A DNA stretch of 64,000 nt from Chiua virens (Eukaryota; Basidiomycota; Agaricomycetes; Boletales; Boletaceae): contig JAHNUO010000004.1 of the NCBI GenBank assembly GCA_019787685.1, forward strand, positions 930,001 through 994,000, written 5' to 3'. The stretch's first letter is position 1. Each line of letters starts with the position of its first letter. The position numbers were made by a program, and so were the translations under genes. Below, piece by piece: positions 12,774 to 40,412 of this stretch. The notes below the pieces were generated by a model. That model had not been told where the DNA came from and made no database searches. It saw nothing but the letters and a program-made list of their open reading frames with translations.

Positions 12774-13065
12774 ATGGACAGTGATGTCAGGCAAGACGAC
12801 GACGACGAGGAATTGCGAGCATTGGGTTATGTCCCTTCCTTCCGGCGCGAGTTCTCCAATCTCGCTACAATCAGCTTCGCATTTAGCATTTTGGGTCTTT
12901 GCTCCAGCGTCGCTATCACTTTCAATACGCCCTTGCTTCTAGGAGGTCCGGCATCCGTATCGTGGTGTTGGTTCCTAGGAGCGACGAACTGTCTTGCTCT
13001 AGCAAGCAGCATTGCTGAGATAGTGAGCGCGTATCCAACTTGTGGTGGGCTCTACGGCGCTTCTG
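12774..13065 (+). pseudogene. APC-family amino-acid permease, 5' fragment (interrupted)
   Basis: The frame from the ATG at 12774 encodes an acidic cytoplasmic N-terminus (MDSDVRQDDDDEELRALGY) and then the first helices of an amino-acid/GABA permease: FSNLATISFAFSILG, ITFNTPLLLGGP and the signature IAEIVSAYPTCGGLYGASA. It breaks at 13065, exactly where an inverted repeat begins, and the next in-frame codons run into foreign DNA with a stop at 13107. The missing 3' part is found at 39066-40412 on the same strand. Joining base 13065 to 39068 restores one frame with the expected family sequence (GASA, R, LCPKRYRATVGW). The family moves amino acids or GABA across membranes by proton symport. As assembled the gene is broken. 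Confidence 0.85.
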
Positions 13066-13075
13066 CATCAGGAAA
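13066..13075 (+). repeat. Left terminal inverted repeat of the giant element
   Basis: CATCAGGAAA, identical in inverted orientation to 39056-39065, preceded by TG. Confidence 0.75.
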
Positions 13076-13724
13076 CTGTGAGGGAGCTGCTATAACCAGA
13101 CAGATATGACAAACAATTGCAAAGCTGATGCTGATAGAATAATGTCAGATATGGTACATGCAACAAGGGCAGCAGAAAGCTAGGGTATGAAAAGAGGACA
13201 GAAGAAGCATGTGTTGATAGAAATGCTATCTCAGTGCTGATACAGTTGGTGGACAGTTGTCAGCATGGATCACTGCTTCGATATAATGAGTTCAGTATTA
13301 TCTGGCTTGTAGCATGCTGGCACAGAATTGGTAACAAGCAGGCATGAGTAAATGATTATTACAACTAAATACAATGCAGGTATAATATGGCAAATGGCGG
13401 ATAAATGAGTATCAACAGTTGCAATGAAAACAGAAGAGGCTGGAGTACTAAGGAAACACTGACGAAAATCCGTTCCCGGCGATATAGGCCGCGGTGTAGC
13501 TGGTGGTCCTTTGAATCGGACGACTCGGATTTTAGGTAACGGGGAAAACATCGTGAATGCGAATGCCATGGTAGTATATATGCATACACGGAGGCATTAC
13601 TACAAGAAATCACACAATGAGAAACAGAAATATAAACGATTCAAATCATTCAACGTCTACGCGTCAATGCTATCACGAGTTGGAGCGTTCGGACATTGGG
13701 CCTACTGTATCCACTGAGAAAATG
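13076..13724. other. Left subterminal region of the giant element, no gene
   Basis: The stretch contains several short related words (CTGATGCTGATAG, TGTTGATAGA, GTGCTGATACAG, CAGATATG) that could be transposase-binding subterminal repeats; this is inference. No supported coding frame was found. Confidence 0.45.
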
Positions 13725-15789
13725 CTATAGATGGCGTGCATCATCCGGATAAACCAGTCCAGTACGAAAGGTTGCAGTCGCTGACAACCAAAATGGTCCC
13801 GAAACGAGCACAAGGGTCACGATGTAAGCGCCACTTGTACCCCACGAACTCGATGGATCAAGCAGAAGGCCCGCCACAAAGGCGGAAATCGTAAAAGCAC
13901 CACTTTCGGATCATTCTCAACAAAACAAAAATAACGTGGTGAATGTATCGCTCACCTTATGACACAACAAATGCCCGGTAGGCCGAATATGAGCATAATT
14001 TTGTCAATGCCTTCATTCAATACAAATTCCTGTAATAGTAGTGGTCACGATCGTGTACCGACAACTAAACAAGATGGATACCACCGACATACCGAAAATG
14101 CGATAGACCTCATCCGTTCGCCGAAGCGCTGAGCCAACAACCCTACGAACAAGGAAACGGCCCCGAGAAGGAAAGATATTGCGCAGAGTGTTTTGGTAGC
14201 AGTCAGGGTACCAAGGACCGGAATGCTCATGATTGTACAATCAACTGCCATGAGGACTCCAGACTAATGACCGCTCATGAGTAAAGGTAAATTTAGTCCG
14301 TGATTATGCGACCTACTAGCGTTATCTGACTATTGACTTGATAACTCATGTCATCCACAAACGTTTTCACGTCCACTGCATTGACAATATTATCAACGCA
14401 AATGGCTTTCAAACGTTCCACAATCGCCGGAAAGAGGAACATGACATTTCCAGTAATGACGCTTCGTTGCGCCATCATCTGTGACACCTTCAAAGAGTGA
14501 GATCGGATAAGTCGGGCTTCTGGGAAACCATGCATATGCAAGAACTGGTGGTGACCTGTTGAGACGTGGAATAAATACCCGAAATCGTTGACATGCATTA
14601 CTTACAGAGTGTGGATTTAATTCTGCCTGGCCGTCGAAGATGTCATTTAGTTCGGAAAAAAAAAGTTGTTTCAAGTTGTTCCCTCACCGAACAGTGCAAC
14701 AGTGAATTCGTCCGCTGGGCCCCCGCATGATTCAACTGATGAAATGTCAATGTAAGGTGGATCATGATACGCTCCGGACAAGCATACCAGCTTCGCTTAA
14801 GTATCTCAGAAGCTTTTCCGTTGTATCTGGGTTGCCAAATATTGAGGCAGCCACAGTGCCCTCCATAGTAGCGGCTTCTATCGGCGAAGGGACTGAGTGT
14901 TGTGACTCATCTTTCTCTACAAAGGAACTTACCAACACAGAGGTAGCGAAGCTCCTGGCATAGAGATTGAATTTCGGACAGAGGTAACGATTGTTCAAAA
15001 GGGAAGTATTCGACGTGTTTCCAGAATTGTGCCTCAAGTTCCCATCCTATGAAAGAGATATCAATACACGTAGAGAAAACAATTTATCAGAAAAACTCAC
15101 GCAGGTGCTCTTTGTCGTGGATATAAGCAGATTCTTGAAACAACAATTCTGCAGAGACGTTCTGTTTCCAGGTAACGAGCCGCCGCACGGAGTCAACATA
15201 ATAATATTCGTACATATCACTTTGATCCGGGCTATCGGCCAGGTGGATAGGTTCCGCGTACATGAGCCATTTGGGGTTGGCTCGTGCTCGCGCCGCAGTA
15301 ATCCACTCCTCGAAATCACGTATCCGTTGCACTGAGTCACACCGCTGAATGTTGAATCCAGTGATAGTGTTCTGATCGCTGGATCAATAACATGTGAGTA
15401 CACAATGTCTAGTTACTTACCAACACCTCATTGTAACAATAGGTTACACCACACGGATGAGGCAGTACCTTCCAGTTATCAATGCATGTAATAACTCTAC
15501 TCGCCGTGATACGTAAGTTTATTTGAGCAGTTGCGTCAAAGGAACACTAACCTATCCCCAAACTGCTCAATGTCATGCTCCGTCAAAAGCCACCCGAAGG
15601 GCGAGTCAGCGCTCGGTGTCGTCGTCACCAGGCTCCGTGGCAATGTGGGTCGGTTATACCTCCTCAGCTGTGAAGGCCAAGTAGGTATTCCATGCGTCTC
15701 GTAGACATCCGTGTGACCCGTCGGAGGCGACGGATGTTGCGCTGGTACCACGATTGCCTCAGGTTGCAACAGGCTTACCGAAGTGTGCA
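13725..15789 (-). CDS. WW-like domain protein with C-terminal transmembrane helices (Agaricomycete-specific)
   Basis: About ten exons read from the ATG at 15789 (MHTSVSLLQPEAIVV) to the stop at 13725. The order is a Pro-rich N-terminus, a WW-like segment (NWKVLPHPCGVTYCYNEV), a region with YEYYYVDSVRRLVTW, and ELEAQFWKHVEYFP. Then come EKLLRYLSEA, HHQFLHMHGFPEARL and FPAIVERLKAICVDN, and four or so hydrophobic helices (IMSIPVLGTLTATKT, AISFLLGAVSLFVGLL, LIFGLPGIC, FVAGLLLDP). This layout matches a large family I know from mushroom genomes; its function is unknown. All inferred exons are open and splice sites look usable (GTGAGT, GTAAGT). It lies inside the giant transposon as cargo. Confidence 0.7.
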
Positions 15790-17024: not shown

Positions 17025-17946
17025 ATAAGAGACCGTAGAAGCTCGCCGATTCTGTTAAGAAGGCGGCATTCACATCGCTGGTTGAGTCGTTAATCTCAAG
17101 AGAAGTATAGACAGAGTATCATGTATCGCCCACGGTGTTGGAGGCCAAACCCCGGATATTCCGTGACTGGCCATCGACAATGGCCGCCAAGAATTTCGAT
17201 GAATTTGAATTGCTAGTTCAGAGCGGTTCTGATGCGATGACTGTCGTGTTTATAATACACGAGAGGTCGCTGAAGAAAAGTAATTAAAGGTTGAATGAGA
17301 AGAAAGGTGGGGCGATAAGTTCGTCCCAAAGGGGGTTATGTTTGAAGGGATGATGGATTCAGGTTTGTCTAAGAGTCCTAGAAGCTGCTGGACAATCCGG
17401 AATGAAAAGCGGTCGATATAAGAGTATCCGGGTGGGGGCGAAGCGATGAGGGTATTGATTCGAGTAGATGAGACGTCGAGGAACGATAGGACGAGGTAAA
17501 AGAGAAGCTATCCAGCTCACTCACGCACGGGAGAGTAAACAGGAGATCTCCTGAACGCAGAAAGACAATATTTTTGTGTTAGAAACAGGGTTTTATAGTC
17601 CTGGGCATATCCCAGGACTGTTAAAGGTAATCCGACCCTAAGTAAGTGTACAGGATTGACGTAGGGTGAGTATGGAAAGAAGGGGTGTCAAACCTTGTAG
17701 ATGACAAAGAAAGGGAAGGTGTTAGGATAGTAATGACCTTAATAAGGCCAAATCGAGTAGAACAAGTCAAATCGGATGAAGCGGAATACGTACGAAAGCA
17801 CCGGATTGGATCGCGTTGACTCGGATTGGACTCGGATTGAACTCGGATGATCTGTAAACGCTAGGAATGAAACCGGGCTGGCACGAAGTCGATGGCGGAT
17901 GAGACGGGAGATGATATGACATGATGAAGAGCGAGGAAAATGTATC
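17025..17946. other. No gene seen
   Basis: Repeated stops occur in all frames. At 17770-17860 there are several tandem ACTCGGATTG(A/G) words (GACTCGGATTGGACTCGGAT), a short degenerate repeat. Confidence 0.5.
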
Positions 17947-18693
17947 CTACAACCGTAGGGAGTATCTAACTCCTACAACGGCTGCGGCCCTCCTTTCAAA
18001 AAGAGGGAGTAAATTTTTCGGATCAACAGCGGTAGACAGATCATAATTTTTTGCAAACGCCTCTGCTTTGGTAGCCATCTTACCCCGAAGCGTTTGTACA
18101 TGTTCCATGTACTAAATTATGCAGGTTTAAAACATGGATGGTCGAAAACTGAGGTCGACTTACCGTCTTATGTACCCTCTCATCCCACTCGGTGACTGAA
18201 AATGTGAGAATCAGTCATGCTCGGTTGGAAAATATAACGAACAACGAACTATGGCTAGACTCGGCGGATGCCTGGCTCAGGCACTCCGTCTCAGCGTCGC
18301 TAAACTCCGTCGCAGTTGAACCCCACCCAATGTTCTCGATGATTTCCATGATGAGAAGATCGCAAGCGCGTCGCACGTTAGCCTTATGTTCAATGGAAAA
18401 CTTCTGGTATTCAGGACCAGCTCCCCCGACTATGCTCGGGGCTGATGAGGCCAGGGAATATGAGTGACTACTGTAGTTCTGCTGGGCGAGCTCAATGTCG
18501 GTAACTTGAAGTGGGACACCGAGCTGAGCCGACCCATCGGCGGCAAGTGTCATTTGTGCGAATTCCTGAAAACGATGGAATTTCATACCTGATCAAATTC
18601 AAAAGCCTGTGAGTGGTGTCCAGGATACACTGAGGCGTGCATGCCCCCAGATTCTTCGAAAATAAAATCTGGTGGCGGTAGAAAGTGAGACAT
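17947..18693 (-). CDS. Small helical protein of unknown function (transposon cargo)
   Basis: Four exons agree in phase: 18693-18589, 18523-18250, 18195-18164 and 18111-17947, giving 191 residues from ATG (MSHFLPPPDFIFEES). The middle is a Ser-rich then helical region (VRRACDLLIMEIIENIG, FSDAETECLSQA). The C-terminus is a predicted coiled coil (EWDERVHKTYMEHVQTL, KMATKAEAFAKNYDL). The introns have canonical ends and ~50-66 nt length. I do not recognise the family. It is on the same strand as the coiled-coil gene at 20227, with a similar Ser-rich plus coiled-coil layout. Confidence 0.55.
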
Positions 18694-18759
18694 GAGAGTA
18701 CGATGGAGAAAGACCGCTGGCGGGGGTGACTCCGAGTACTAACCAATTGTCGACAGTCC

Positions 18760-20226
18760 TCGTTTTATCATTCACGAATGGTCAGGTGCGATACTGAGCC
18801 TCAATGGGGATATCCGAGTCGAATAGAATGGGCAGGGAATACTAAGTAGTATGATCAAGTTCAATGTAGCGGAAATTATCATTACTCACTGTCCTTCGAC
18901 TTGTGCCATTACGTGGCAGTAACAGCCGATTTCATCATACCATACAATAAGTACTGATGCGGAAGTCATGGGAGAACTTGAGGCAGAGAGAAACCACAGG
19001 CAGTCGCGTCGATAAGTTGAAGCCGCGTAAGCGAGGAAATATAACAGGAGGAGTGATTGCCGCTGCGGAGCTTACATAAGTTAGAGTTTTGACCAATACA
19101 ATGGTTCGTAAATTCAGGTATCATTCAGTCATCGGAATGGCGGACGCACGGGGCTTACTCGGAGTTCTTTCGGGGTTGTGGGCGCCGTATCATAAGATGT
19201 GGGATCCAGCTGCTAAATTCCTGGACCCTTTAGGGGACAGGTTTGGGAGGGCGTCGGAAGTTCGCAATCGCTGACGGATGCGTGGGAGTTGGATGGTGTG
19301 GGAAAGCTGGCGAGTGGGGATGCGGCTCTCCTCAGCATCTCTGTCGCGACGCCTATGAACGTGAATGGTGTGTTACTTTTTCTGTTTTCCAGAGTTGTCG
19401 TTAATTTCTGCTGCATGCCAGGGACAAGATGGGCGGTGTTTGAGTGTACTGCTGGTTTAGCGTGATGCTGTAACGTATTCAGAGTTACGACGAGATTTTG
19501 AGTTTGTAGGTTCGCTTTCGGCGCTGGTGAATGATGCACGTCGATTCCCGTGTGGTGTTTATCATGATCTTGCAGCTGTTCTGCATGATGTCTCCGTCTT
19601 TGTGGAGCAGTTTCGGTATCTCACTTGCACGCATTTGCGTCTCCTTTGCGATGATCACACTTTGCTTGCTTCCCCCGCGGACCGTCGTCCAGCCTTGGTG
19701 ACAAGGCGAGTCCCATCGATCATGCTTGTGCCCTGATCGGGCCTATCTCTTTCGCATGCTTGCTAGGTCGCGTATACACCCCGATGAGGGTACGACAGCG
19801 CCGTTGGGCCGTGTTCAAGCGCCTCGTCGCCGTGAGGAGCGTTGCGAGATGTCGAGTCTGAGCGTTGAATCTGTGGCAGAGGTGCGGGCCGTGACGAGCG
19901 TAGACGACGATTTCCCCTTTCCTTATGTCTGTTCGTGGGAGCACAAGGTGGAAAGGGGAGTTAGTGATTATGCTTGTGCTGTATCCTTCACTCCTTACTG
20001 TAATACTTTCTCCTTTGTATTCCGACTCTATATTTCACTCCGAGTCAGCATTGTTCGGGTCCAGGGTTGCCCGGAGGGCCGTTGAATTCAAACTCCCATG
20101 GTGTATGTTCGAATTCTGCCAGGGTCACCCTCACAGTCACAGATTACATAAAGAGGCCTAGGTAAATTTCGTAGAAGTAACAAGTTCGTTGCGGTTTTGG
20201 CGTGATAAGCACTACAGTAATACAAT
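18760..20226. other. No confident gene
   Basis: Short frames on both strands (for example around 19213-19539 and 19720-20085) have no splice partners or recognisable motifs. The stretch may hold a decayed gene. Confidence 0.4.
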
Positions 20227-20902
20227 TTACACCTGTACATGTTGATCGACCTTAACGGACACTGGCGAAGGAGGGACGCTACCGGAAATACTGACAGAAG
20301 AACACGAGGCAGAACTGGAAAATTCATCGAAACCACAAGCTCGAGAGGTTGAACTATTAAAGAGGGAGGACCATGGACCTGTTTCCCCGCAGGCGGTTAT
20401 ACCGCCGTTGTTGTACAATTGTCTGCGGATTTCACCAATCTGGCGATGTGTCTGGTTGAGAGAAAACTGAGTATCTTCGTACTGGTTCTCTACAACCTCC
20501 TTCATCATCTCCAATTCCTGCATACGGAGACGTTGATAATGCATCTTCGCCGTGCAGACGCTTCGACTCAGTCGAGCCAGACTGAGCATCTTTTGGTTCA
20601 TGTACGTATTAACCTCTCGGGTTCGATCAGTGTTGGACTTTGGACACACATAGCTCAGTACGGTGACTGGGTTTGCATTGACTTGAAGAACTTACAGGTG
20701 TATTCAACGCTTGAGTAGCGTGGGGAGCATCTTTTCCACCGTCTACCGATACAATTGGCTCGGCTGCAGCGCTGAAAATAAGAGGGATCTCTGGATCATG
20801 TGAATCGCTGTGGGGGATGGCACATGGCAGTTCAAAGACTGGCCGAGGGGAGAGGACGGAAGAAGGCGACTGAGGTGTTGAAGAGAAATTGTTAGAGTAC
20901 AT
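20227..20902 (-). CDS. Ser-rich coiled-coil protein (transposon cargo)
   Basis: Two exons, 20902-20696 and 20637-20227, join in phase to 205 residues, starting MYSNNFSSTPQSPSSV. Residues ~75-140 form a strongly predicted helix/coiled coil: TREVNTYMNQKMLSLAR, MHYQRLRMQELEMMKEVV and LNQTHRQIGEIRRQLYN. The C-terminal ~60 residues are Ser-rich. No catalytic motif is visible. The gene is transcribed away from the transposase gene that begins 1.4 kb to the right, so it could be an accessory factor, but nothing shows this directly. Confidence 0.6.
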
Positions 20903-22320
20903 GATGTGACGGTCAGTGGAAAAGCGAATAAAGCAAGTCACTGAGCAGTGACACTGCCGACGCCGTGCGTTCAACTTGAAGTTCGTTCCCAAGGGTTGTG
21001 GCGCCAGTCCGTTTGCAGCCCGTAATCATATACTTCGATGCGACATGAATTTAATCACAGCCGAGGCCCGGCCCGTCGAAGTAAGCATGATTACTAGTAG
21101 AGTCACTGCTGTGAATTTTATTCATCTGAAGTACGTTGTAGGGAATAGGTATTCCCTGTGCTCGCATAGCACGTTTCCGCACCCTGTCGTCACCCGATCC
21201 CGATCCTGATCTGTCTGCTTGTGCGAACTCATCCGGATTGCTGTATCCACACCCGATTTGCCTCGGACTCTTTTATTTTATTTTTGATGCTCCTTATTCG
21301 TACTTAGCATTGGCTAGACCATGTCACGCAGCCCTTGCAGGGACGTTCGGGTGCCTCTCGAACTTTATACCGTACGAAAACCTTCTTTTTATTATTATCC
21401 TTACTTAGGACAAGTCTGAGGGTATTCCCGAGGACTATAAATTCACTGTATTGACAAAATACAGTAGCTTTTGCCCGTGCGCATCTGTCTCACATCGTTT
21501 TCGGTCAACGTTCATTTTCTCTCGCTCTCCTCGTGTTTTATCGATCCGGATTCGGACTGCCGTGTCCGCCTTTCTATCCGTTTTAATCCGGATTCGCCCC
21601 GGATTCATCTCGGACTACTCAAAAACCATTATTCGTCGTTCACCAACTCAGTGTTGTCCCTGGGTCGAACGGAATCGCATTCCTTCACCCTCTTTCTATT
21701 TCTTTCAATCCCCCTGAGTATTGCACTACAGCCGGGATATATTACCTTCAACGTGATGGCCTGCTCTTACTTGTCACTGTGTTGTAGTTTAACTCGGACT
21801 GCCAGTATCTGAGGGTGCTGATGGCTCCTTCCAAAAAGAACTTGAAGTCGGAAAAAGGAATTCTGGCATTCAATAAGCCAATGAAAACCCCCACTTCGCA
21901 GCTTCCCCATTCCATGGAAACTCAAAGAAAGTTTCATTTAAGCTGTGGCCCTGCCACTGGCAGTGGGCGCTGCCACTCACTACTCCGATCTGCCTGATCT
22001 TCACGCTCCACCCGCGCTACTTGTTTTGCCCTTTCCCACTGATCGGCCGGCCGGCCATCAATAACACAACTGTGACGACCTAACTTGAAGGCGACTGCGA
22101 CAGAGCAACTTGAAGGTTGACGTATGTTTCACACCGCATTAGATTTAACCGATCCCTACCTAGATCATGATTTTGTACGTGAGGCATGCCCACCGTGACT
22201 GCAAAATTCGGAATCATCCGGGTTGATAGTACCAATCCGTCCAAGTCGTTATTGGTACCTTCATCCCCAATTCATCCCGGTCCACAGTAAGGCGAAGCCG
22301 CAGTTACGGTCCTGACTCTA
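20903..22320. other. Divergent intergenic region upstream of the transposase
   Basis: No supported gene. The stretch is rich in ATCCGGATTC-like words near 21540-21610. At ~21945-21970 a small hairpin (CCCTGCCACTGGCAGTGGG) is present. Confidence 0.45.
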
Positions 22321-25300
22321 ATGAATGCAGATCTGCCTCGGACATTCCTTGCCACATGCGTCTGCAATAAGACATTTACTGATTTGGCCCACTTAAGCCG
22401 GCATCAGAAAGCTTGCACGAAGGGCAAAAAATGGTTGGCTGGCGCTCTCACTATGGCCAAGGAGGTTTATCGTCGTAAGAAGATGCGCACTCAGGTTGTC
22501 GATTCATCAGTTGGCTCGGAAGAGGCCCCAGGTCACATTAACATGAATGACCCGGACGAGGTAAGCAACATTACTGGCAGCTAGCCACTAGCAATAGCTA
22601 ATAGGACTCGGAATGTGCTCAGCCACAAACGTCACTTGATACTACCCCTCTGACCAACGATACAACCGATGTTCACCCTGGGATAGAGCCCGATGCCCCA
22701 GACTTGTCTCTGGCCCAACGACGACCCTGGCGAGTACATCGACGGCTCCCTGCACGGTTCAGGGATGTCCTTCCCGAGCCCCCACCCCTCGTTCTACCTC
22801 GTGAATCCGACGTGAATCCAGACTGTCCACCATGTTCCACTGTGCCCAGATCCACGACCCGAGACGCACCGGTCCCACCTTCGTGTCGGACGTTCAGAAC
22901 TCAGCAAAATGGATTTGGAATATTCCGTGTTTATAATCGTCAAACTCTCCCGTCTCATGATCCCACTTCTTCCGTTTCCTACGCAACCCCGCGCTTGGAT
23001 GAGGTGATTCCGAAGACCCATGCGGATAATCCATTCCACCCTTATCCGAATGAGAACTCATTTTTGCTCGGCGACTGGTACTGGAACCATGGGAGTCAGA
23101 AGTCGAGAAAGAGCTTCAAGGAGTTGGTGAAAATCATCGGGAGTCCAAATTTCCGCCCAGAAGACGTGCGGGATACTAGGTGGATTGCAATTGATCATGA
23201 ACTGGGGAACCCGCGCCAAGAGCGGCCAGACGACGCTTCTGGGTGGAATCACACCACCATCACCATTTCCGTCCCCTTTCACAATCGTTGCCAGCACCCC
23301 GGTCCCAAGATTTACTCTGTCCCTGGTTTTCATTCCCATTCTTTGTTATCCATCATACGCGACAACCTTTCGCATCCAAACCACCATTCTCAGTTCCATT
23401 ACGAACCGTACGAGTTACGTTGGCAGCCCCCGCACAAGACTACTGCGGTCCGGGTATATGGTGAGCTGTTCACATCACAAATCTTTCTCGAAGCGCATGA
23501 ACAGCTCCAGGCATCGCCTGGAGAGCCCGGATGCGATCTACCTCGCCATATCGTGGGATTAATGTTCTGGTCCGACTCGACCCAGCTTACGTCCTTCGGA
23601 GACGCCAAACTGTGGCCGCTTTATATGTATTTCGGGAACGAGTCCAAATATACGAGAGGCCAACCATCCTCCGGCCTTAGCATGCACGTTGCATACTTCC
23701 AGGTTGTAAGTACCATTAGATTATTACCTGGAAATGGGACTGACTGCAAATATTTCTCATAGTTACCGGACGAATTCAAGGATTTTGCGACAGAGCATGC
23801 GGGAAACAAGGTTCCAGGTGATCCACTGTTTACGCATTGTCACAGAGAGTTGTTCCACATACAATGGCAGAAGCTACTCGATGAACATTTTATATCCGCA
23901 TACGAACATGGATTCGTTGTAACCTGTTGTGATGGTGTGGACAGGCGGTTATATCCCTGCATATTCACCTATTCTGCCGACTATCCCGAGAAGTACGCAT
24001 AGCTTCCTTCCTTAACTCTAACTCACACCAGTCAAACAGAGTGCTTATAGCCAACATATGAAATCTAGGACAATATCCATGTCCACGCTGTTTGATCCCG
24101 AAATCACAGATTGAGCTGGTCGCCACTTGTCATGACATGCTGCAACGCGATCTACTCTCACGAAGTGACTCGCAGGAACGAAAGGACAAAATATCCTTGG
24201 CCCGTGACTTGATTTATCAGCAGAATTACGCTGTTGATAGCGCCAAGGTGCAAAACATCCTGAAAGCTGAATCTCTCGTTCCAACAATTGTACGCTCCAA
24301 CCTAGTGACTGGTGCTTCCGAGGCTAAAGTTTCTCGTCTTCACAGAATGCGTTTTCTGCGCGACTCGGTCATACAGGTTTTGACTTCTTTCGGATGCTTG
24401 TTGTTGACTTACTGCACGAATTCGAGCTTGGGATCTGGAAAGCTTTGTTTACTCACTTGCTTAGGATGCTGGATAGTCAGGCGGGGACTAGCCTCGCAAA
24501 GCTAGACCAACGGTGAGATTGCTGCAGCCCCAGTTACCATGTGGTTCTAGCCTAAAGTTTTCGCTACTCAGCTACCGCCAAGTGCCGAAATTCGGTCGTG
24601 ACACCATTCGACGCTTTAGGAAAAACGTTTCAGAGATGAAACGAACAACCGCACGCGATTTTGAAGACCTTTTGCAGGTGAGTATTGCAACCCAGTTTGA
24701 ATTATCCGATTGCTGAGAATCATTTGGTTCAGTGTGCGATACCTGTCTTTGAAGGACTTTTACCAGAGCCCCATAATCATAGTGTATTGTGGCTCCTGTT
24801 CATATTATGCCATTGGCATGGACTTGCGAAGCTCCGGTTGCATACTGACGATACTTTGGACATCATGGAGACCATTACCCCACAATTGGCAAACTTTCTT
24901 CGCGAATTTCAGTCACGAACATGCTCTGCATTTCAAACGAAGGAACTTCGAAAGGAGGCAGTGAATCGCGCGAGATGGGGGGCCAAGCAAGCTTCCAACG
25001 GGGCCAGCCGCCCTAGTTCACAAGCCTGCGGCACACGTCGCCAGAAGGTATTCAACCTTCAGACGTACAAAGTACATGCTCTTGCAGATTATCCTGCGCA
25101 GATCAGGACATATGGTACGACAGACTCATTTTCCACACAGATAGTATGTCGGTTTTACAGGTCAGATCCAATTACTGAAATGTTTCAGGGCGAGCTGGAG
25201 CATCGAACTAGCAAAGGCCGTTATATCAGGACAAGTCGCAAAAAATACATACCTCAGCTGACTGCCATCGAGCATCGCCAAGACCGCATTCGACGCATTC

Positions 25301-26499: not shown

Positions 26500-26536
26500 G
26501 TTACCTTCGATGTCGCAAAGGTTGGGTTTTGCCAGT

Positions 26537-27489: not shown

Positions 27490-29575
27490 CCGAGCCTCGA
27501 TACCTCCCGACACACCTGCCCTGCCCGCCCACATTCGCCCAAGCGCTGCTGCGCCTGACGTGCACGTGCCAGTAGTCCGACGCCGTCGCATCCCTGTCCT
27601 CATCCTCCCGACACGCACGGACGCTCCCGCCCTTCCTGTCTCACGCCTGCTCGGCCTCGCTCGACGCCCTGCTCTCGCTGCCCCCGGGCCGCCCCACTGC
27701 TTTCTGTGCATCGGCATGAACGCACACGTGCCACGCGGCCCCCGCCTACCCCTTCGCTTCACCACCCCGGCCTGCCAAATGACACGATGGCGACAACAAT
27801 GGCAACGACGCACTATTGTCGTTGTCGTTGTCGTTGTCGTCGCGTCGTTGCGTCGCCCTTCCCCACCCTTTCTCATCATCCCACCCAACGACAACGACAC
27901 GATGACCGCGGTATTGCGGCCAGCGTGTCGCTGTTGCTGTCGTTGCGTCGTCGTCGTTGCGTTGCCCCCGTCGCGTCGCGTCGCCTTTCCCTCACCCTCA
28001 TCCCACCCGACGATGACAACAACGCGATAACCACGTTGTCGACATCGCGTTGCATCGCCCTTCCATCACTAGCTCCCTCAGGCTCCCCCCCTCATCCCAC
28101 CCGACAACGACGACACGACGACAACGACATGATAACCATGTCGTCGTCGTTGTGTCATTGCTGTCGCATCGTCATCCTCGTGGCATCATCGTCCTCATAC
28201 CCTAGCCTGTCGAACGATGCGATGGCGATGGCAACAACAACGTCGCGATAATCACGTTAGCGTGATCGTCGCGTCATTGTCGTCGTCGTCGTCGTTTTGC
28301 TCCCATCCCGCCCAGTCCTCACCATGCCGTCGCACTCACCCTGCTCTCGCCCTCCTTGCCCTTTTCTCACCCTCTTGCCTCGTCTCCCCCACTGGAAATG
28401 ACAACGATGATGCGATAACCGCGGTGTTGCAGTTATCGCGTCGTCGTCGTGTCGCCCTTCCCCACCCTTTTCTGCCATCCCACCCGACGATGACAACGCA
28501 ATAACCGTGCCACGTGGCCCACGCCCACCCCTTCACTTCACCACTCCGGCCTGCCAAATGACACGATGGCAACGACAACGACAACGGCGCTATAACCGCG
28601 ATAACGCGGTTATTGTGTTGTCGTCGTCGTCAGGCGAGGGAAGGGCGAGGAGAGGAGAGGCAAGGCAAGGCAAGGCGAGCCTGAGGGCGACGACAACGAG
28701 GGCGACGACGACGACGACGACGTGACGACCGCATTATCGCGGTTGTCGCGTCGTTTTCGTTGGTTTCGTCAGGCGAGAGGCGAGAGGCGAGGGCGACGAC
28801 GATGACGACATGACAACCGCGTTATAGCGGTTATCACGTCGTTGTCGTTGGCGTTGGCGTTGGCGTCATCAGGCGAGGTGAGGGGTGAGGCAAGGCGAAG
28901 GCGACGACGACGAGGGCAACGAAGGCGACTCAGAGAGCAACGAAGGCGACTCAGAGAGCAACGAAGGCAATGACGACGTGATAACCATATCACATCATCG
29001 TTGTCATCGTTGTCATCATCGTCAGGCGGGATGAGGCGAGAGGTGAGGCGACGAAGGTGCCACCAAGACGAGGGCGACGAGAGCAAGATCGAGGGCGACG
29101 AGGGCGACGACAACGTGACGACCGCGTTATAGCGGTTATCACGTTGTCGTTGTCGTTGTCGTTGTCGGGCAAGGTGGGGCGAAAGGTGAGGTGATGAAGG
29201 CGAAGACAAGGCGACGAGAGCAAGATCGAGGGCGACGAGGGCGACGACAACGTGACGACCGCGTTATAGCGGTTATCACGTCGTCGTCGTCGTCGTCGTC
29301 GTCGGGCAAGGTGGGGCGAAAGGTGAGGTGATGAAGGCGAAGACGAGGCGACGAGGGCAAGAGCGAGAGCGATGAGGACGACGACAACGTGACGACCGCG
29401 TTATAGCGGTTATCACGTCGTCGTCGTCAGGCAAGGTGGGGCGAAAGGTGAGGCGAGGGCGAGGTCGACGAGTTGAGGGAGAGGCAAGGTGAGATGATGT
29501 GAAGGCGGCGACGAGGGGGAGAGCGACGACGACGACGTGACAACCGCATTATAACGGTTATCGCGTCGTCGTCGT
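27490..29575. repeat. Left array of triplet-rich hairpin units
   Basis: Units of ~110-150 bp combine a GC-rich polypurine or polypyrimidine spacer, CGTCGT/ACGACG triplets and a central palindrome such as GACCGCGTTATAGCGGTTATC. Near-identical hairpins lie at ~28811, 29115, 29253, 29390 and 29537, with weaker ones at 27903, 28415, 28590 and 28720. A larger direct repeat (CACCCCGGCCTGCCAAATGA type) is at ~27722 and ~28507. Long open frames here are low-complexity artefacts. Confidence 0.75.
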
Positions 29576-29659
29576 TGCCGTCGGACAAGGTGAGAACACA
29601 TACCTGTAGCTGTACCCGTGCACGCGTACATAACTCGTGCTACGGGTATGGGTATGGGC

Positions 29660-29683
29660 ACGGGTCACAAGAGTGTGACCCGT
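29660..29683. repeat. Perfect short hairpin
   Basis: ACGGGTCACA, a 4-nt loop AGAG, then TGTGACCCGT: 10-bp perfect arms. Confidence 0.85.
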
Positions 29684-29989
29684 ACCCATGCAGAACCCTA
29701 TATATCATCCTGACGAGGCAACTTGAAGCCTGAGGGTGGTAACACAGGAGGGAAAGACGAGGGTGGATGGTATGACACAGTGGTGTGTCATCGCAGCGGA
29801 ACAACAGGTTGGTGGCACAACTTGAAAGGCCTGGGGGTGGTAGCATGAAGGAAGGAAGGAAGGGGGGACAACTTGACGAGGGAAGTGCGACATGCGATGC
29901 GATAGCACAAGAACACGATGTACAGTGCTGTGTCACATTGTCGTGTCGTGGTGGTGCAATTGTAATTCTATGGGATGATCCGAGCCAAT

Positions 29990-31180
29990 CACGTAACGAA
30001 TAATGATCCTACTGATACTGATTCTGTGATAGTTGTGATATTCTCCTCTCTTTCACTTTATCAGGCTTCAGCAGTGATCCAGCTTCCTCCAAATTATGCA
30101 GGCCTCATTGAATGATGTATATATAGATATTCTACTGTATATATTACTGCCCATAATGTCTTAAACATTATCTAGGACACATTTATTACTTTTGTGCAAT
30201 GAATATATTTAAAGGGATTTAAAGGGTATATTGTCAGGGCAATGTTGTATTATCCTGGCTCCTATGCTACTCTAATACTCTCTATTTTACTGTATTTTTT
30301 GGATGAGGATTGAAGACGTGAGGAGCGACTCAAACATATGAGATGCGTGGGAAACCATCTGAAAACTTAGGAGACTTTGAAAACAAATCAAAAACTTGAC
30401 ATTGTGGCTTCCACAACGCCTTAAGCACCATTCTAAGTAGTAGATAATCTATTTGACATGCCATATAACATGTGTACACTGTGTGCCTAGCCTATCTTGA
30501 TTTTTAAGACATCAAAATTGCGAACATGCATTCCATGAGGTTACTTTGAGCATATGTGCACGATCATGTTGACATTGAAGCAATTGCACTGAAGAGGTGT
30601 TTTTGCAGTTTCCATGTCTTAGAAATAGAATAAGCTAGGCACATGATGTACACAAGTTCTATTGCATTCTACATACATTATCTACTGTTTAGATTGGTTC
30701 CTGAAGCGTTGTGGAAGCCATAATGTCAAGTTTTTGATTTGTTTTCAAAGTCTCCTGAGTTTTCAGATGGTTTCCCACGCATCTCATATGTTTGAGTCGC
30801 TCCTCACGTCTTCAATCCTCATCCAAAAAATACAGTAAAATAGAGAGTATTAGAGTAGCATAGGAGCCAGGATAATACAACATTGCCCTGACAATATACC
30901 CTTTAAATCCCTTTAAATATATTCATTGCACAAAAGTAATAAATGTGTCCTAGATAATGTTCAAGACAGTGTGGGCAGTGATATATATGGCAGAATACAT
31001 AGGCATAAATCATACAACACTACATACACAATTCTGGGGGAGCTGGATCACTGTGAAAGCATGGGAAGGTGAAACATGGGTCAGGAGGAGAATGTGACAC
31101 AACTATCACCAGGACTGATCCTGGTGATCTGTGCTGCTGATATGTTGTAGATATGTTTTAAACCTCCCAGAGAATACGTT
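29990..31180. mobile_element. Long inverted repeat (foldback element), ~1.2 kb
   Basis: The core arms at ~30148-30425 and ~30695-30970 are almost identical in inverted orientation, including CATATGAGATGCGTGGGAAA and TTTAAAGGGATTTAAAGGG. Outside the core the arms keep pairing with less identity out to ACGAATAA (~29994) and TTATTCGT (~31181), through CAGTGATCCAGCT and GATAGTTGTG. The ~270-bp centre also shows weak inverted similarity. No protein-coding frame is present. It resembles a foldback or MITE-type element. Confidence 0.8.
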
Positions 31181-31499
31181 ATTCGTGGGGCATTACCTGA
31201 ATGTTTGAAAAAAGCGGTCATGTTTTTCTTTTTCCAACAAATCCACATTATCACTGTACATCAGGTTTCATATCCCAAATTGAGCATTCACACACATATA
31301 ATAGTACATCACATTGCATATATACAGACAAATGACGTGATGTACTGTGAGGAAGCAGGGAAAAAGAGAAAGAACATATTACCATTTCTGAAACACGACA
31401 TATCAAGCATGCCACAATATTTCCTAATAAGGAGCGAGAGTGGGTGTTTGTCAATGTGCACGTGAAGTTCAAATGTTCGACAACCACAATGATGACGCC

Positions 31500-33175
31500 G
31501 ACACCGACGTGACACGGCGACTCAGAGGATGATGACAACGACACGATAACTGTGCTCTCGTTATTGTGTCGTTGTCTTTATCCTCATGATCGGAAACCTG
31601 AAGGAAGCATGAATGACGCCATGTCACAATGATGACAATAATGAAGACGAAGACGACGTGACCCACACGCGACGCGATGATTACCGTGTTATTGTCGTCG
31701 TCGTGCGAGCCATTTTAGACGTGTAGAAAGGGGGAGGGAGGCGCGGCGCAGCGCAGCGCAACAAGGACAATGATGACGACACGACAACCGTGTCTCAACG
31801 GTTGTTGTGTCATTGTTACAGGTATTCTAGACGAACAGGGAAGGAGAGAGAAGGGCGAGAGGGCGAGGAAAGGCAAAGGTGACGCGACAATGATGACGAC
31901 GCGACAACAACGACATGGTTATCATGTCGTCGTCGTCATGTCGTCGTCGTTGTCAGGTGAGAGCCTGAGGTGCCAGTGCTGGAAGGGCAACGCAACGCGA
32001 TGTCGACAACGACGCAGGTATTGCGCCACTGTCATCGTCGGAAGGGGCGAGGTGAGGGAAAGGCGACGCGACAACGACATGATAACCACGATACCGCGGT
32101 TATCGTGTCGTCGTCATCGGGTGGGATGACACGAAAGGTGATGGAGGGCGACGCGACGCGACAACGTGGTTACCGCGTCATCGTCGTCGGATGGGAGGAT
32201 AGGGCGAGGGAGGGGCAACGCGACGCGACACAACGATGACGAAACCGATGCAACAACAGCGACAACGACACGATGACCACAGTATCGCGGTTATCGTGTC
32301 GTTGTCGTTGTTGGGTGCGATGATGGGAAGGGTGCGACATGATAACAACGACACGATATGTCGTTGTCATCGTCCTGTGGGACGAGGGGCGAGGGTGAGG
32401 GAGGAGCAACACGACAGCGACAACGACGTGATAACCGCACAATTGCGGTTATCATGTCGTTGTCGAAGTTGGGTGAGACGAGGATGAGGGAAGGGGGAGC
32501 CGAGGGCAAGGAGGGTGATAGTGAGATGTCAATGAGCACGTTGGGACCGTGCGCATCGACAAGGTGGCGAGGTCCACAACGTCGTCATTGGGTGGAACGG
32601 CCCGGGGGGAGAGGGCGACGGAAGGGCCAGTCAAGGGCAAGGAGGGTGAGGGCGAGGGCGAGATGACGGCGGGCGCGTTGGGACTGTGCGTGTCAGACAA
32701 GGTGGCGAGGTGAGGGAAGGGCAACCCGATGTGAAAAAACGCGATGCGACGACAACGACGTGACAATCGCAATACGCGATTGTCATGTCGTTGTTATCCT
32801 CAGGTGGAATAAGGGGAGAGGGTGAAGAGAGGGTGAAGAGAGGGCAAGGAAGGCGAGGGCGAGATGACGGTGGGTGCGTCGGGGCCGTGTACATCCGCAT
32901 TGGACGAGGGGAGAGGCGAGGGAAGGCCGAAATGGTGCGACAAAACACGACGCGACGATGACGGCGACGTCGTCACAATAACCGTATCGTTGAGTGGGAA
33001 CGGTGGCGAGAGGTGAGAGGGCGAGGAGGGCAAGAGCGAGATGATGGCGAGCGCGTCGGGACCGTGTGCATCGGACGAGGTGATGAGGGGAGGGAAGCGC
33101 ATCGTGACGACAATGACGACGACGTGATAACCGCACTATGATTGCGGTTATCACGTCGTCGTCATCGTCCAGTAG
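31500..33175. repeat. Right array of triplet-rich hairpin units
   Basis: Similar units to the left array, mainly purine-rich on this strand (GGGCGAGG, GAGGTGAGGG) with hairpins at ~31537, 31778, 32082, 32270, 32430, 32760 and 33120. The clearest reads GTGATAACCGCA, a short centre, then TGCGGTTATCAC. Open frames across it are low-complexity. Confidence 0.75.
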
Positions 33176-33722
33176 GACATGGCGGGAGGGGTGAGGGAGG
33201 GAAGGGCAAGGTGAAGGCAAGAGCGCGTCGGGACCGTGCGCCGATCAGACGAGGGAGGACCGGCGAGCAGTGTGACATCGTGACATCCGGGCGCGTCGGG
33301 CGAGGGCAGGGACGGCAAGGGCGGGACGGTGGCAGGCACATCGGCCGTGCGCATCGAACGAGGTGAGGGCCGGCGAGCACCGTGACGTCATGTCATCCGG
33401 GCACACCGGGAGGTGAGGACGAGGAGGCGTGAGGAGGCATGAACGGGGACAAATGCGGCCTCGGAAGAGGCACCTGCGAGCCTCGTTCGAGGCCCAAGCT
33501 GGGCCCAAGCTAAATTTGGGCCCAGAGGCCTCCAACGAGGCCGGTCTAAGAGACCTATTGTCACCTACAACGAAAATTGGTCTGAAAGACCATCGGAGTT
33601 TGAAAAAAGTGCTGCCTGAGGTGGCTATATGTGTTCCCTCGACCATCCTGTGGCGATCTCACCTTACCTTCAGGTGGTCCACCTTGTCATTCACGAAGCA
33701 CAAGTCTCCAAGCTTCCCTACC

Positions 33723-35146: not shown

Positions 35147-36230
35147 GGCTTGCAAACCAACCGATGCTAGGATGAAACCTCGGGTTTGCTACAACATATG
35201 TGCTGACCCGGCTGAGTGTTTATAACCACCCGGGCCGGCTACTCCAAGTCGGAATTTGTGGTCTCAACGGGCTGTGGCTCGCTAGAAAACGTCAGTAAGG
35301 TAATACTGATGGGCTCACACCCGATGCGGTGAGGGCATGCGTAGCACTACATTGGTAGTGCGGCGACTGACGTGGAAGCGACAGCAGCGCCAGAAGTGGA
35401 GAGATTTCGATCATTTCATATGCCATGACCCTGATTGACCCCGAGCTTCTCGGATAAGCTGCCACCGACACTGACTCGGATACTACCTGTCGAGCGGCAG
35501 AAACAACATAATGTTTTTACGAAATTCCAAGGTTATCGCCGGCGCTGGCCAAGGTTGATGATATTACCACACGGAAGGGCTTGAGAGTGTGCAGGCCAGT
35601 GAGGTAGTACTACTATTAGTAATTGTCAATGTGCCAAAAACGGCATATTATCACCGTTTGCTGGGACTGCATTGCGAGCGGTAACGAGTCGGATAGCAGT
35701 GCTCGAGGTATTTCGATTATTTTATGACACGGAGTATCCTAACCCTGATTACAGTAACGGGCCACTTTCAATTCAGCTTGTCACTGCTAGTGGCATGGTT
35801 TCAAGTAGCATTGGCAGTACCAAAAGTGGCGATCTCTGTCTGCAGGAACAGGAAGACCCAAAGATCTGGCGAAACCAAGTCCAAACGTGACAGAACCAGA
35901 GGTAGGAATAAGTTCACGGGAGCATGAGGAAGACTAGGAAGACTCACCAGTGGGGTTTAGCGAAAGCCATTCAGTACTGGTGATTCAAGTTGAGTCCCTG
36001 ACTGTCTCGACTCGTCGGGAGATAAAACCGTCATGGAATGACTCACGCACCTCTCATATCCTCCCTCAGGCTCCAGTAAACGGGCCTCCCCTTTCAATTC
36101 ACTACTACTGTCTCATGCCAATCATGCAGAATGATCGCCACGACCGCTCATCATCCGATGTGGCGACTGGTCAGAAGTGCGTGCACTCTAGCGCTTTGCA
36201 GCTTGGGCCCAGGAAAAAACCGTGAGGGTC
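35147..36230. other. Region upstream of the DUF6698 gene
   Basis: Two short frames (35672-35890 and 35950-36225) are on the same strand as the following gene and may contain its divergent N-terminal exons. I could not link them by phase. The words at ~35395-35440 resemble those at ~35690-35750 (ATTTCGATCATTT and CCTGATT), suggesting an old duplication. Confidence 0.4.
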
Positions 36231-36267
36231 CTTCGCATTGTTAGTATCGGTGCTGAACTTGTCCAAG

Positions 36268-37575
36268 AACAACTCAAGACCCGCTTGTTCATCATGGACG
36301 ACACTTCGGGTGGTCGGCGCACGCATTTTGCAACATTCAAACTCTCGTCACCAATGGGCTCTTGCTCATGTGTGAGGATGAAGAACAAGAATCTATGACG
36401 GCTGCGTGAGTAAATGTGTACATCACTTTTCATCGCCTTGATCCACACTCACTCTCCAGGGAAAGACAAGAGTACATGGTTTTTCGTGAACTCCTTCGCT
36501 TGGCGCCTGGGCTCGAGGCTCGATTGATGGGATCTTCAGAGGGAGAGGTAGTTACCACTGCCGAGCTGGTAATTCGATCACACAATTTCGTCTTGTCCGC
36601 CGTTGACTTACAAGGTCACTTCATCTCTAGATTCAGAGGGGTGCTAGTGGTGCAAGAGCCGACGACACAAAGGGAATGAAGAGCGCAATCATTGACTGGA
36701 TCACCCCTAAGGGCCAGTCTTTGAATCCCCACATCCCCAGAAATAACAAGTCCGGGCGTGGATTCAACCATGAACGTACTGGCGCTCTTTTGTGTCCTGC
36801 GGGACTTGACTGGAGCAACGCTGAGTGAGTGACATTGTAGATTTCTGCTGGTCATCCACCCATCTCAGGGCTTGCATTCACAGGACAAGAAACAAGCTCG
36901 TGAATGGCCAAATTCAGGTAGCCGGTGACCAATGGCCGGTTTTCTTGTATGCAAACTACTCGTACAACCCTGAGGACCCATGGAATGGACTGCTTCGCAG
37001 TGGGCTACTGATCTCTGTGCGTATTCTCCGTCCCTTTAATTTTGCGATCCTTGGTTTGAGCCCTTCAGATAGGCATTCAAACATATTTTTACTTCCCCAA
37101 GCTCCGTTGATCAAGAACCAAAGGCAACACGATCAGGAAATGCACGTATTCACGGTATGCGGTCCGTCACTAAGGCGTCGATCGCCTATGTTGCTACCCA
37201 GGTAAGTTCAAGTTAGACGTCTCCGGTAACTATGTATTTCTCAACACATCAATCGCAGGCTCGCTTCGCACTTACGTCTGCCCAAGTGTTTTCACGCACT
37301 GACCTCGTGACAGATTCCGAGCGTTTCTACAACAGTATACTGGAGCTGCTATTTGATCCTGATGAGAAAGAGGAGGTAGACCAACTTCTGTTGTGGTGGA
37401 ATCGGTATGTCCCTTCGATCTCAGCCGACACAGTACTTAAGGAATGAATAGGCAAGTATTCCCTCTTTATGCGGACATTGAACGCGTGCCATCGAAGAAT
37501 AGTGCTCTGGCGCGGATCCGCCAAAAGCGTGCGGAAAATAGGGACCGAGACAATATCTCGGACGTGGTAGAATAG
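36268..37575 (+). CDS. DUF6698-family protein (cargo; N-terminus unresolved)
   Basis: Exons after the first part are 36460-36568, 36631-36824, 36869-37016, 37073-37201, 37259-37404 and 37452-37575, all in phase. The upstream exon ends at 36405 and contains HAFCNIQTLVTNGLL. Family hallmarks are YMVFRELLRLAPGLEARLM, IQRGASGARADDTK, AIIDWITPKGQSLNP and GRGFNHERTGALLCPAGLDW. Others are AFKHIFTSPSS, QARFALTSAQVF, LLWWNRQVFP and SALARIRQKRA. This family is abundant in mushroom genomes and has no known function. The frame is open throughout. The first residues are not defined, so the start given is approximate. Confidence 0.7.
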
Positions 37576-37689: not shown

Positions 37690-38900
37690 GGCGGTCAGAC
37701 GCGTCCGTCTGCAAGGGGCGTCAATACAACGTAGTGATTGCCGACATGGGCCAAACTAGCACCAATGACGTTGATGGTCGAAAGCACCAGTCTGTGAAGG
37801 GTGTCAATGCGAGTAAAGATGGACCATATGGACCATACTGGCCTACATGGTATGGCTTGGCAACGCTCCACTAATGGCATCCGTGGTCGAGAGCGCCAGT
37901 CTGTGGGGGGTGTCAATACAGAGCGAGAGTTGCTGACGCGCCCCATGCCAGTCTGGATTGGGTTTGTTAGCAACGCTCCGCCAATGGTGTCAGTGGTCGA
38001 GAGCGCTAGTCTGCGAGGGGTGTCAATACAGAGCGAGGGTTCCTGACATGGGCCATGCTGAGCTGCATTGTATGGCTTGGCGACATTCCACCAATGGTCC
38101 CAGTGATCGAGAGCGCCAGTCTGCGAGGGGTGTCAATACAGAGCGAGAGTTGCTGACGCGCCCCATACCAGTCTGGATTGGGTTTGTTAGCAACGCTCCA
38201 CCAATGGTGTTAGTGGTCGAGAGCGCTAGTCTGCGAGGGGTGTCAATACAGAGCGAGGGTTCCTGACATGGGCCATACTGAGCTGCATTGTATGGCTTGG
38301 CGACATTCCACCAATGGTCCCAGTGATCGAGAGCGCCAGTCTGCGAGGGGTGTCAATACAGAGCGAGAGTTGCTGACGCGCCCCATACCAGTCTGGATTG
38401 GGTTTGTTAGCAACGCTCCGCCAATGGTGTTAGTGGTCGAGAGTGCCAGTCTGTGGGGGGTGTCAATACAGAGCGGGAGTTGCTGACATGGTCCATTTCA
38501 GTCTGGATTGAGTTTGTTAGCAATGCTCCGCCAATGGTGTTAGTGGTCGAAAGCGCCAGTCTGCGAAGGGTGTCAATACGAGTAAAGATGGTCTATATGG
38601 TCCATACTGGCCTACATTGTATGGCTTGGCGACATTCCACCAATGATGCTAGTGGTCGAGAGCGCCAGTCCGCGAGGAGTGTCAATACAAAGTGAAAGTT
38701 GCTGACATGGCCCGCGCCAGTCTGGATTGGGTCTGTTAGCAACATTCTACCGATGCGTATCGGTTGTCGAGAGCGCCAGTCCGCAAGGCTGTGTCAATAC
38801 AGAGTAAGAGTTACTCACATGGCCCATGCAAGTCTGGATTGGGTTCGTTAGCAAGACTCTACCGATACGGTGTCGGTGGTCGAGAGCACCCGTCTGGGAG
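37690..38900. repeat. 110-bp satellite, about 11 copies
   Basis: The marker GTCGAGAGCGCCAGTCTG or a close variant recurs at 37777, 37886, 37996, 38106, 38216, 38326, 38436, 38546, 38655, 38766 and 38879, mostly exactly 110 bp apart. Two alternating subtypes (CAGTCTGGATTGGGTTTGTT and GAGCTGCATTGTATGGCTTG) make a 220-bp higher-order unit. It sits 165 bp inside the right end of the giant element. Confidence 0.9.
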
Positions 38901-39055
38901 GCATTGTTATGAGTAGCCACAAGGGCACATGGATCAACACTCGACAACCCCCTCGGAGATTATATAAGCTGACCAGAGCATGTATCATTCTGGCATAAAT
39001 TGTGTTGTTGATAGACATGATAAGCCCAGCTAATTGTTGATCTAACTGTCATCGA

Positions 39056-39065
39056 TTTCCTGATG
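39056..39065 (-). repeat. Right terminal inverted repeat of the giant element
   Basis: TTTCCTGATG, the exact inverted copy of 13066-13075, followed by TG and then permease coding sequence. Confidence 0.75.
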
Positions 39066-40412
39066 TGCTCGCTTGTGCCCAAAAAGGTATCGTGCCACGG
39101 TCCGTCTCTCCCTCCCGAGTCGTCAACACATCAATAAAATTTGACTTGTCAATAGGTCGGCTGGATCGTAGGCTGGCTTAATCTCCTCGGACTCATTGTT
39201 GGCCTTACGTCCACTGAGCTTGGACTTGCCAACATGATTCTTGCTGCAGTATCTATATCCACCGACGGAACTTATCCAATCACTTCCGGAAAAGTTGTGG
39301 GACTAACTATCGGACTCCTTATTATTAACAGTATACTGAACACATTCAAAACTCGGCAACTTGCCTATTTTACCTGCTCGTTTATGTTCATTAACCTGGG
39401 TGCCACCCTCCTGATCATCATCCTACTTCTGGCAACTACACCACGATCCGACATGCATTCTGTGTCATACCTCTTCGGTGCGGATGGCCTTATCAACGGA
39501 ACGGGAGGCTGGAACGACGGTGTCAGTTTTCTTCTCGGACTCCTCAGTGTCCAGTGGACTCTGACTGGATACGACTGCACGGCTCATATCTCCGAAGAGC
39601 TTCGTCGTGCAGCGTACGCCGCACCGGCAGCTATCATGATTGCATATGCTGGTACAGCAATTTTTGGTTGGATCCTTAGCATCGTGCTGGTCCTGTGCTC
39701 TGGGTCATTCACAGACCTCCCCGGACCATCGGGGTCTGCATTCCTTACAATCATGGTCTTGCGATTGGGATATCGCACTTCCATCGCTCTATGGGTCTTC
39801 GTCTGCATGACCGCATTTTTTATCGCGCAGACCGGCATGCAGGCTGTGTCTCGCGCCATATATGCGTTCAGCCGCGACCATGTCCTTCCCGACCGTGAAT
39901 TCTTTGCACACATCACTCACTCCACGCAAACCCCACTGCGAGCCGTTTGGTTAACAGCTGTTCTCAGTGTCCTCCCCGCACTTCTCTATCTAGCCAGCGC
40001 TGTCGCTGGAAACGCCGTCTTCGCTCTATCAGCCATGTCCTTGGACCTTTCCTACGTTATTCCTATCATCCTTCGACGCATCTTTCATTCCCACCCGGAA
40101 GTCATGTTCAAACCTGGTCCATACTACATGGGCGACGGCTGGCTCGGGGCATTCGCCAATGTTTGGTGCACCGTTTGGACAATTTTCATTTGTGTGGTGT
40201 TTTCACTCCCCACAGAGTTGCCCGTCACGGCGACAAACATGAACTATGCCGCGCCAGTTACTCTGGGATTGCTAATCGTCACTGGGCTGTGGTATGTGTT
40301 GAGCGCACATCGGCACTATCATGGTCCACCCTCTGGAGATGGCAATGGACTTGACATGGGGCATAACGTTCTCGAGAAAGCCAACAATGCTGTTAAATTC
40401 GAAGAGCCCTGA
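39066..40412 (+). pseudogene. APC-family amino-acid permease, 3' fragment
   Basis: Two exons: ~39066-39099 (coding ARLCPKRYRAT) and 39156-40412. The second begins VGWIVGWLNLLGLIVGLTST and carries about ten membrane helices. Among them are VGLTIGLLIINSIL, FINLGATLLIIILLL, MIAYAGTAIFGWILSIVLVL and APVTLGLLIVTGLWYVL. Family motifs such as GYDCTAHISEELRRA and SRDHVLPDREFF, both conserved in fungal amino-acid/GABA permeases, are intact. There is no start codon before it and the N-terminal helices lie 26 kb upstream at 12774. No frameshift or stop was found, so the disruption looks recent. An internal ATG could give a truncated product but would lack the first transport helices. Confidence 0.85.

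Follow-up and report, generated by a model that had tools for sequence, protein, structure and literature searches.

According to the available portions of Kojima (2025; PMC12730594), PlavakaB DNA transposons have CATCA..TGATG termini and target site duplications (TSDs) of 2 or 3 bp, some Plavaka families carry an additional TET/JBP gene, and the EnSpm/CACTA elements, with CAC..GTG ends and a 3-bp TSD, have a transposase group related to that of Plavaka. Nothing was found in those portions about how large the elements are or about a second Plavaka protein. The subject of this study is a large insertion in a 64,000-bp stretch of the genome of the bolete Chiua virens (the window; contig C4, positions 930001-994000, of the 48.3-Mb assembly). 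The insert is very probably a copy of a large cut-and-paste DNA transposon of the PlavakaB type, about 21.2 kb in length and with two passenger genes. It belongs to a known transposon group, of which it is a large variant carrying extra genes, and does not represent a new class.

The element resembles PlavakaB in its CATCA..TGATG termini, 2-bp TSDs, Plavaka domain and Agaricomycetes host, and its ends, TSD and transposase domain fit a placement in that group. Unlike the TET-carrying PlavakaB families of the same source, it gives no TET/JBP match and contains membrane-protein and DUF6698 genes instead. With EnSpm/CACTA it shares a related transposase group, short terminal inverted repeats (TIRs) and a second element-encoded protein, but it ends in CATCA..TGATG rather than CAC..GTG and has a TSD of 2 bp rather than 3. 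An earlier, sequence-only reading of the window had likened the insert to EnSpm/CACTA; its ends set it apart from EnSpm/CACTA proper, since this form of terminus with TSDs of 2-3 bp is the PlavakaB signature in the available text (PMC12730594).

The large size has parallels, because the accessible parts of two reports (PMC11244446; PMC6431247) describe large elements with related transposases. The enlarged En/Spm elements of the red alga Chondrus crispus (16-20 kb, 4-5 open reading frames; PMC6431247) are likewise large, related multi-gene transposons, although lineage, host and passengers differ. The Plavaka giant repeats of Amoebidium are tandemly clustered intron-poor genes spanning up to 50 kb, usually transposase-flanked and highly methylated (PMC11244446). 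They are similarly large and Plavaka-associated, whereas the Chiua virens element is a defined 21-kb TIR unit with intron-bearing gene models. The largest library element of Marasmius oreades is about 42 kb, its type not being stated in the text available (PMC9674265).

The insertion interrupts a permease gene

The insert lies at positions 13066-39065 of the window, exactly 26,000 bp, within an exon of an APC amino-acid permease gene, which is thereby broken. The features of the site are:

12774-13065, + strand, 5' part of the interrupted permease gene, assigned from frame, relatives and alignment
13064-13065, no strand, left copy of the target site duplication TG, from the flank sequence
13066-13075, + strand, left terminal inverted repeat CATCAGGAAA, 10 bp
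39056-39065, - strand, right terminal inverted repeat TTTCCTGATG, 10 bp
39066-39067, no strand, right copy of the target site duplication TG, from the flank sequence
39068-40412, + strand, remainder of the permease gene, with exon sequence at 39068-39099, an intron at 39100-39155 and a long exon beginning at 39156

The sequence-only reading had described a permease split by an insert with matching ends and TG on both sides, and this description is borne out: the frame ends at 13065 and resumes at 39068, after the right TG. The interval that it gave, 13064..39067, encloses a real insertion but includes both TG copies. Once the insert and one TG are removed the exon halves 12774-13065 (292 nt) and 39068-39099 (32 nt) join in frame, as had been predicted. 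The intron that follows was placed by hand, guided by the frame and by relatives. Used as a protein query, the joined permease gave 455 matches at E 1e-50 or better, of which 120 were listed. Eight proteins were aligned to it, one of them the window's own fragment P0008, which ends short of the site. Six relatives (two Chiua virens paralogs and proteins from Lanmaoa, Hydnomerulius, Hygrophoropsis and Leucogyrophana), with 71-77% identity to the joined permease, are free of gaps across the insertion site, while a third, more distant Chiua paralog, P0012 (66%), has one additional residue, located seven positions after the join. The predicted join fits all seven relatives that cross the site.

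The ends of the insert stand out above chance, because within the window the only exact matches to the TIR 10-mer are the two insert ends and across the genome there are 286 such matches compared with 78 for a reversed control.

Family copies and the size of the mobile unit

Searching the genome DNA with both halves of the insert recovered further copies, the one in the window being named A:

Copy B, C4:2041128-2062905, 21,778 bp, no TSD, read completely
Copy C, C8:1750262-1771412, 21,151 bp, TSD GA, read completely, no secondary insertion recognised
Copy D, C21:193477-223467, 29,991 bp, TSD TG, read with a 2.2-kb gap
Copy E, C21:253834-277566, 23,733 bp, read in part
Copy F, C21 from 508739, left part, read in part

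Copies B, C and D/E have their ends in common with A, and their internal blocks match at 95-100% identity; A aligns with C in four blocks at about 99% identity. Over 1.5 kb the flanks of A, B, C and D are mutually dissimilar (BLASTN, E 1e-3), yet the terminal bases are identical. A 2-bp TSD is found at three of the four independent insertions (A TG, C GA, D TG). The left 1.5-kb flanks are identical in D, E and F and the right 1.5-kb flanks in D and E, so these copies are duplicates of a single insertion. Two of the three duplicates on C21 are mutually inverted, about 30 kb apart, and differ in inner length (29,991 and 23,733 bp). A search for copies with the same ends and TG flanks, as the sequence-only reading had advised, thus found the copies and the constant terminal bases, but TG itself is not constant. 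TG as a fixed target was rejected, the duplications seen in this family and in the related elements described below being TG, GA, AA, TT and CA.

The 26-kb insert had been taken for a giant, cargo-bearing Plavaka transposon. The TIRs, the 2-bp TSD and the additional genes agree with this description; the length does not, the clean copy C measuring 21,151 bp. The window copy contains three nested insertions, listed here with a tandem repeat of the element itself:

17271-17977, no strand, 707-bp TG..CA solo long terminal repeat (LTR) replacing 2,919 bp of the element (positions 4206-7124 of C), from comparison with B and C
21137-21750, no strand, 614-bp TG..CA LTR-like repeat with a 4-bp TSD ACGT, from comparison with the other copies
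27197-33623, no strand, nested 6,427-bp TIR element with termini CACC..GGTG and an 8-bp TSD GCTATATG, no Pfam domain
37860-38901, no strand, 110-bp tandem repeat in 9.4 copies near the right end, also in B, C and D

A mobile unit of 26 kb was rejected, as the nested insertions of A are absent at those places in B and C. There was no sign that the 26-kb form ever moved in B and C, which were read whole, in D, read with its 2.2-kb gap, or in the parts read of E and F. Later insertions account for about 7.76 kb of A, including their target duplications, and their removal leaves about 18.24 kb. A whole-genome search with the 2,919-bp segment gave matches in B, C, D and E only, and the segment has therefore been lost from A. 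The true mobile unit is about 21.2 kb, and 26 kb is an inflated figure.

Elsewhere in the genome the 707-bp repeat occurs as same-orientation pairs about 5 kb apart, which is an LTR-like spacing. The limits of the 6,427-bp TIR element were set by hand from two insertion sites; it holds a 1.1-kb imperfect inverted repeat and has copies on C12, C40, C10, C38 and other contigs, that on C40 sitting between a DUF6532 match and a Plavaka match.

Gene content of the element

Six-frame Pfam scans of the window insert matched Plavaka and DUF6698 only, and that of the 2,919 bp absent from A gave no match. Gene models were built on copy C with a simple purpose-built gene finder and projected on A. Those on C comprise a membrane protein (- strand), a large gene (- strand) divergent to the transposase, the transposase (+ strand) and a DUF6698 protein (+ strand); three further low-scoring models were disregarded. 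In the window the genes are:

13725-15431, - strand, passenger gene for a multi-pass membrane protein, modelled with 10 exons and open in A, near-identical to JVU11DRAFT_3709
17978-20986, - strand, what is left of the transposase's divergent neighbour (the gene of the distantly DUF6532-like partner), its 3' end in the deleted segment, from the gene model and relatives
22453-26499, + strand, Plavaka transposase gene (PF18759), modelled approximately with 11 exons and interrupted in A by an in-frame stop codon at residue 461 of the model
36115-37447, + strand, passenger gene for a DUF6698 protein (PF20414), 6-exon model, open in A, from Pfam and the gene model

The Plavaka-type transposase reported by the sequence-only reading is recognised by PF18759 (E 6e-20 in the six-frame scan, and E 1.6e-19). 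Of the PlavakaB motifs C(2)C and H(3-4)H between the catalytic residues, the approximate model contains a CPRC, while H(3-4)H has no confident assignment.

The membrane-protein model agrees at 97% with the annotated 407-residue Chiua virens protein JVU11DRAFT_3709 and has four to five hydrophobic stretches. All 39 genome matches of this gene (39/39) lie within the six element copies. A protein search found this annotated protein and two relatives of environmental origin (7,998 candidates scored), and a structure prediction was unusable (mean pLDDT 37.6, 3 sequences). DUF6698 matches are present in copies A-E and number at least 221 genome-wide. DUF6698 was rejected as a general Plavaka partner, with a Plavaka match no farther than 12 kb away at 7 of 75 loci, compared with 5.4 at random. 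Hints below the Pfam cut-off (STIMATE, DUF6417 and TPR_PATROL1) were not used. No TET/JBP match was obtained with Pfam in six frames of the insert or of the missing 2,919-bp segment, a search that a divergent PE-type TET can escape.

Related elements in the genome

The pairing of TIRs was considered among the 100 sites listed out of 286, taking head-to-head pairs within 40 kb. There are 13 such pairs compared with 5.5 at random, and six of the 13 enclose a Plavaka match (random mean 0.2, maximum 5), with copies A and B counted among the pairs as Plavaka-free, their own transposase rows being outside the matches listed. Ends were compared for nine other pairs and one 158-bp pair (C5:413799 and C7:1116009 were left out). 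All five pairs that enclose just one Plavaka transposase have a 2-bp TSD (TG, TG, AA, TT and CA), and none was found for a 27.9-kb pair with several Plavaka matches, three long pairs without Plavaka, or the 158-bp pair.

The five single-transposase elements have outer spans of 14.4, 7.8, 16.8, 11.3 and 6.7 kb. Those of 14.4 and 16.8 kb, read in part, contain Gypsy retrotransposon domains, and their own cores are therefore smaller. The unit of about 21.2 kb is larger than all five PlavakaB-type elements measured. The earlier statement that the element is far larger than typical thus holds within this comparison (6.7-16.8 kb) and is tempered by the large related elements reported before.

A transposase-partner pair

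Distant relatives of the partner protein are encoded on C23, C18, C12, C31 and C40, at C21:0.38 Mb, and at C4:1.29 Mb and C4:2.63 Mb. Several of them lie near listed Plavaka matches and are divergent to Plavaka transposases. The models of the relatives on C31 and C12 match DUF6532 above the cut-off, and it is by these two that the partner is linked to DUF6532; the relative on C23 falls just below.

DUF6532 lies no more than 12 kb from a Plavaka match at 39 of 66 loci, compared with 6.2 at random. The 66 loci were reduced by hand from 98 rows, so that one locus may count twice, and the family's own copies were left out; the random controls, here and for the TIR pairs above, used guessed or truncated contig sizes and hand-copied lists, and lists of 161 and 221 rows were used in part. 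By orientation 25 of the near loci are divergent (1.8 at random), 13 are on the same strand and 1 is convergent. A DUF6532 match is also divergent to the transposase in 5/5 of the measured PlavakaB-type elements. The proximity at 39/66 loci and the arrangement in these five elements suggest that a Plavaka transposase and a divergent DUF6532 gene form a standard transposase-partner pair. The loci L055, L056 and L057 are examples of DUF6532 genes adjoining Plavaka transposases. EnSpm/CACTA elements use a two-protein system, TNPD and TNPA, and by analogy the partner may work like TNPA of En/Spm.

Several observations count against this pairing. The partner itself has no DUF6532 match, only sub-threshold matches to DUF6417 and TPR_PATROL1, and its model found nothing at E 1e-3 against 5.8 billion proteins (7,993 candidates scored). 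The 13 same-strand loci and the one convergent locus among the 39 mean that divergence is not universal, and all of the DUF6532 and Plavaka counts come from hand-copied lists and apply among the matches listed.

Age and state of the copies

Copies A and C differ at 194 of 18,232 bases (175 CpG transitions, 5 transversions), B and C at 201 of 21,151 (186 CpG transitions, 4 transversions), and D and C at 483 of 18,549 (409 CpG transitions, 15 transversions). Nearly all differences among A, B, C and D are thus C>T changes at CpG sites. As A and B are near-identical to C beyond the CpG transitions, their spread is recent and, on sequence divergence, the element family is young. The family is probably methylated; methylation followed by deamination would explain the CpG bias, as would a CpG-directed mutation system. 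Because of the CpG decay and the in-frame stop in its transposase, the window copy is probably dead, that is, immobile.

Beyond the element, a NACHT/NB-ARC-type ATPase with TPR is encoded at 40815-43178 (- strand), adjoining the interrupted permease, and SPT5-like KOW domains are found at 9739-11184 (+ strand) of the window.

Alternative explanations

Some of the evidence sits less easily with a PlavakaB-type transposon. No TSD flanks copy B, the gene model of the transposase is approximate (its introns 7 and 8 are in doubt and one acceptor is not AG in A), and the empty permease site is a prediction that agrees with relatives, the linkage of the permease halves being known from a single assembly. 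This last point would allow an assembly error in which the permease halves were misjoined to repeat DNA. Such an error is extremely unlikely, as TIR and TSD are exact to the base at both junctions, the copies at C4:2.04 Mb, C8 and C21 show the same terminal bases in different flanks, and the permease flanks join in frame as in relatives. The identical 1.5-kb flanks on C21, left in D, E and F and right in D and E, could similarly be read as a sign that the additional copies arose by segmental duplication instead of transposition. For the family as a whole this is highly improbable, given the mutually dissimilar flanks of A, B, C and D and the TSDs of A, C and D. The large size and passenger genes also bring to mind the Starship giant cargo transposons. 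The hallmark of a Starship is a tyrosine recombinase, the captain; here the TIRs, the 2-bp TSD and the Plavaka transposase, together with the lack of a tyrosine-recombinase Pfam match in six frames of the insert or of the missing 2,919-bp segment, reduce the likelihood of this identity to almost nil.

A closer alternative is that this is an ordinary PlavakaB element, its giant size being only apparent and due to later insertions, and its additional genes being normal Plavaka parts. Three nested insertions are demonstrated in A, a transposase with a divergent DUF6532-type gene is common in this genome, and a CACTA/EnSpm element can be enlarged to 16-20 kb with 4-5 open reading frames, as in the red alga (PMC6431247, in the parts accessible). 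However, the clean copy C is still 21,151 bp. Among the DNA matches listed for the insert outside the nested stretches, those with high scores are family copies, and the list also includes short weak matches beyond the family, for example around the DUF6698 gene; the segment missing in A matches family copies only. In general DUF6698 loci do not cluster with Plavaka, and in this genome the membrane gene is confined to this family. An ordinary element of this kind is a possible but rather unlikely explanation. It is likewise only tentatively proposed that one PlavakaB lineage of boletes has become a gene-carrying transposon, moving as a 21-kb unit whose passengers, an intact membrane-protein gene and a DUF6698 gene, may serve the element or the host, within a wider two-gene system of Plavaka and DUF6532-type proteins like that of En/Spm.

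Proposed course of events

In the preferred explanation, that of a large PlavakaB-type transposon, the unit would consist of the 10-bp TIRs, the transposase with its divergently transcribed partner, and the membrane-protein and DUF6698 passengers. The transposase would recognise the ends and excise the element, the partner assisting, and insertion at staggered cuts would create 2-bp duplications of variable sequence, in this case TG inside the permease exon. Once the copy lineages had separated, A would have gained the 614-bp LTR-like repeat and the 6.4-kb TIR element, and an event leaving the 707-bp solo LTR would have removed 2.9 kb from it. CpG decay and the in-frame stop would probably have made A immobile thereafter. 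We infer how the nested events and the insertion into the permease followed one another in time, as well as catalysis by this transposase, the role of the partner, methylation, the loss of activity and any passenger function.

In the open-licence literature no paper naming DUF6698 was found, no report of this gene content, and no description of a Plavaka and DUF6532-type two-gene system. One paper there names DUF6532; in the text available it appears together with Plavaka in a single sentence on domains of two Ganoderma species, with no link drawn between the two.

Significance

For a group of mushroom transposons that has been little studied, the locus provides a recent insertion that is exact to the base and whose empty site can be inferred. 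It shows that Plavaka elements may be as long as 21 kb and can carry non-transposase genes between sites, and the pairing of transposase and DUF6532-type partner presents a candidate second gene of Plavaka elements. Finally, the near-pure CpG C>T divergence of the young copies could let this family serve as a clock of methylation-linked decay in bolete genomes.

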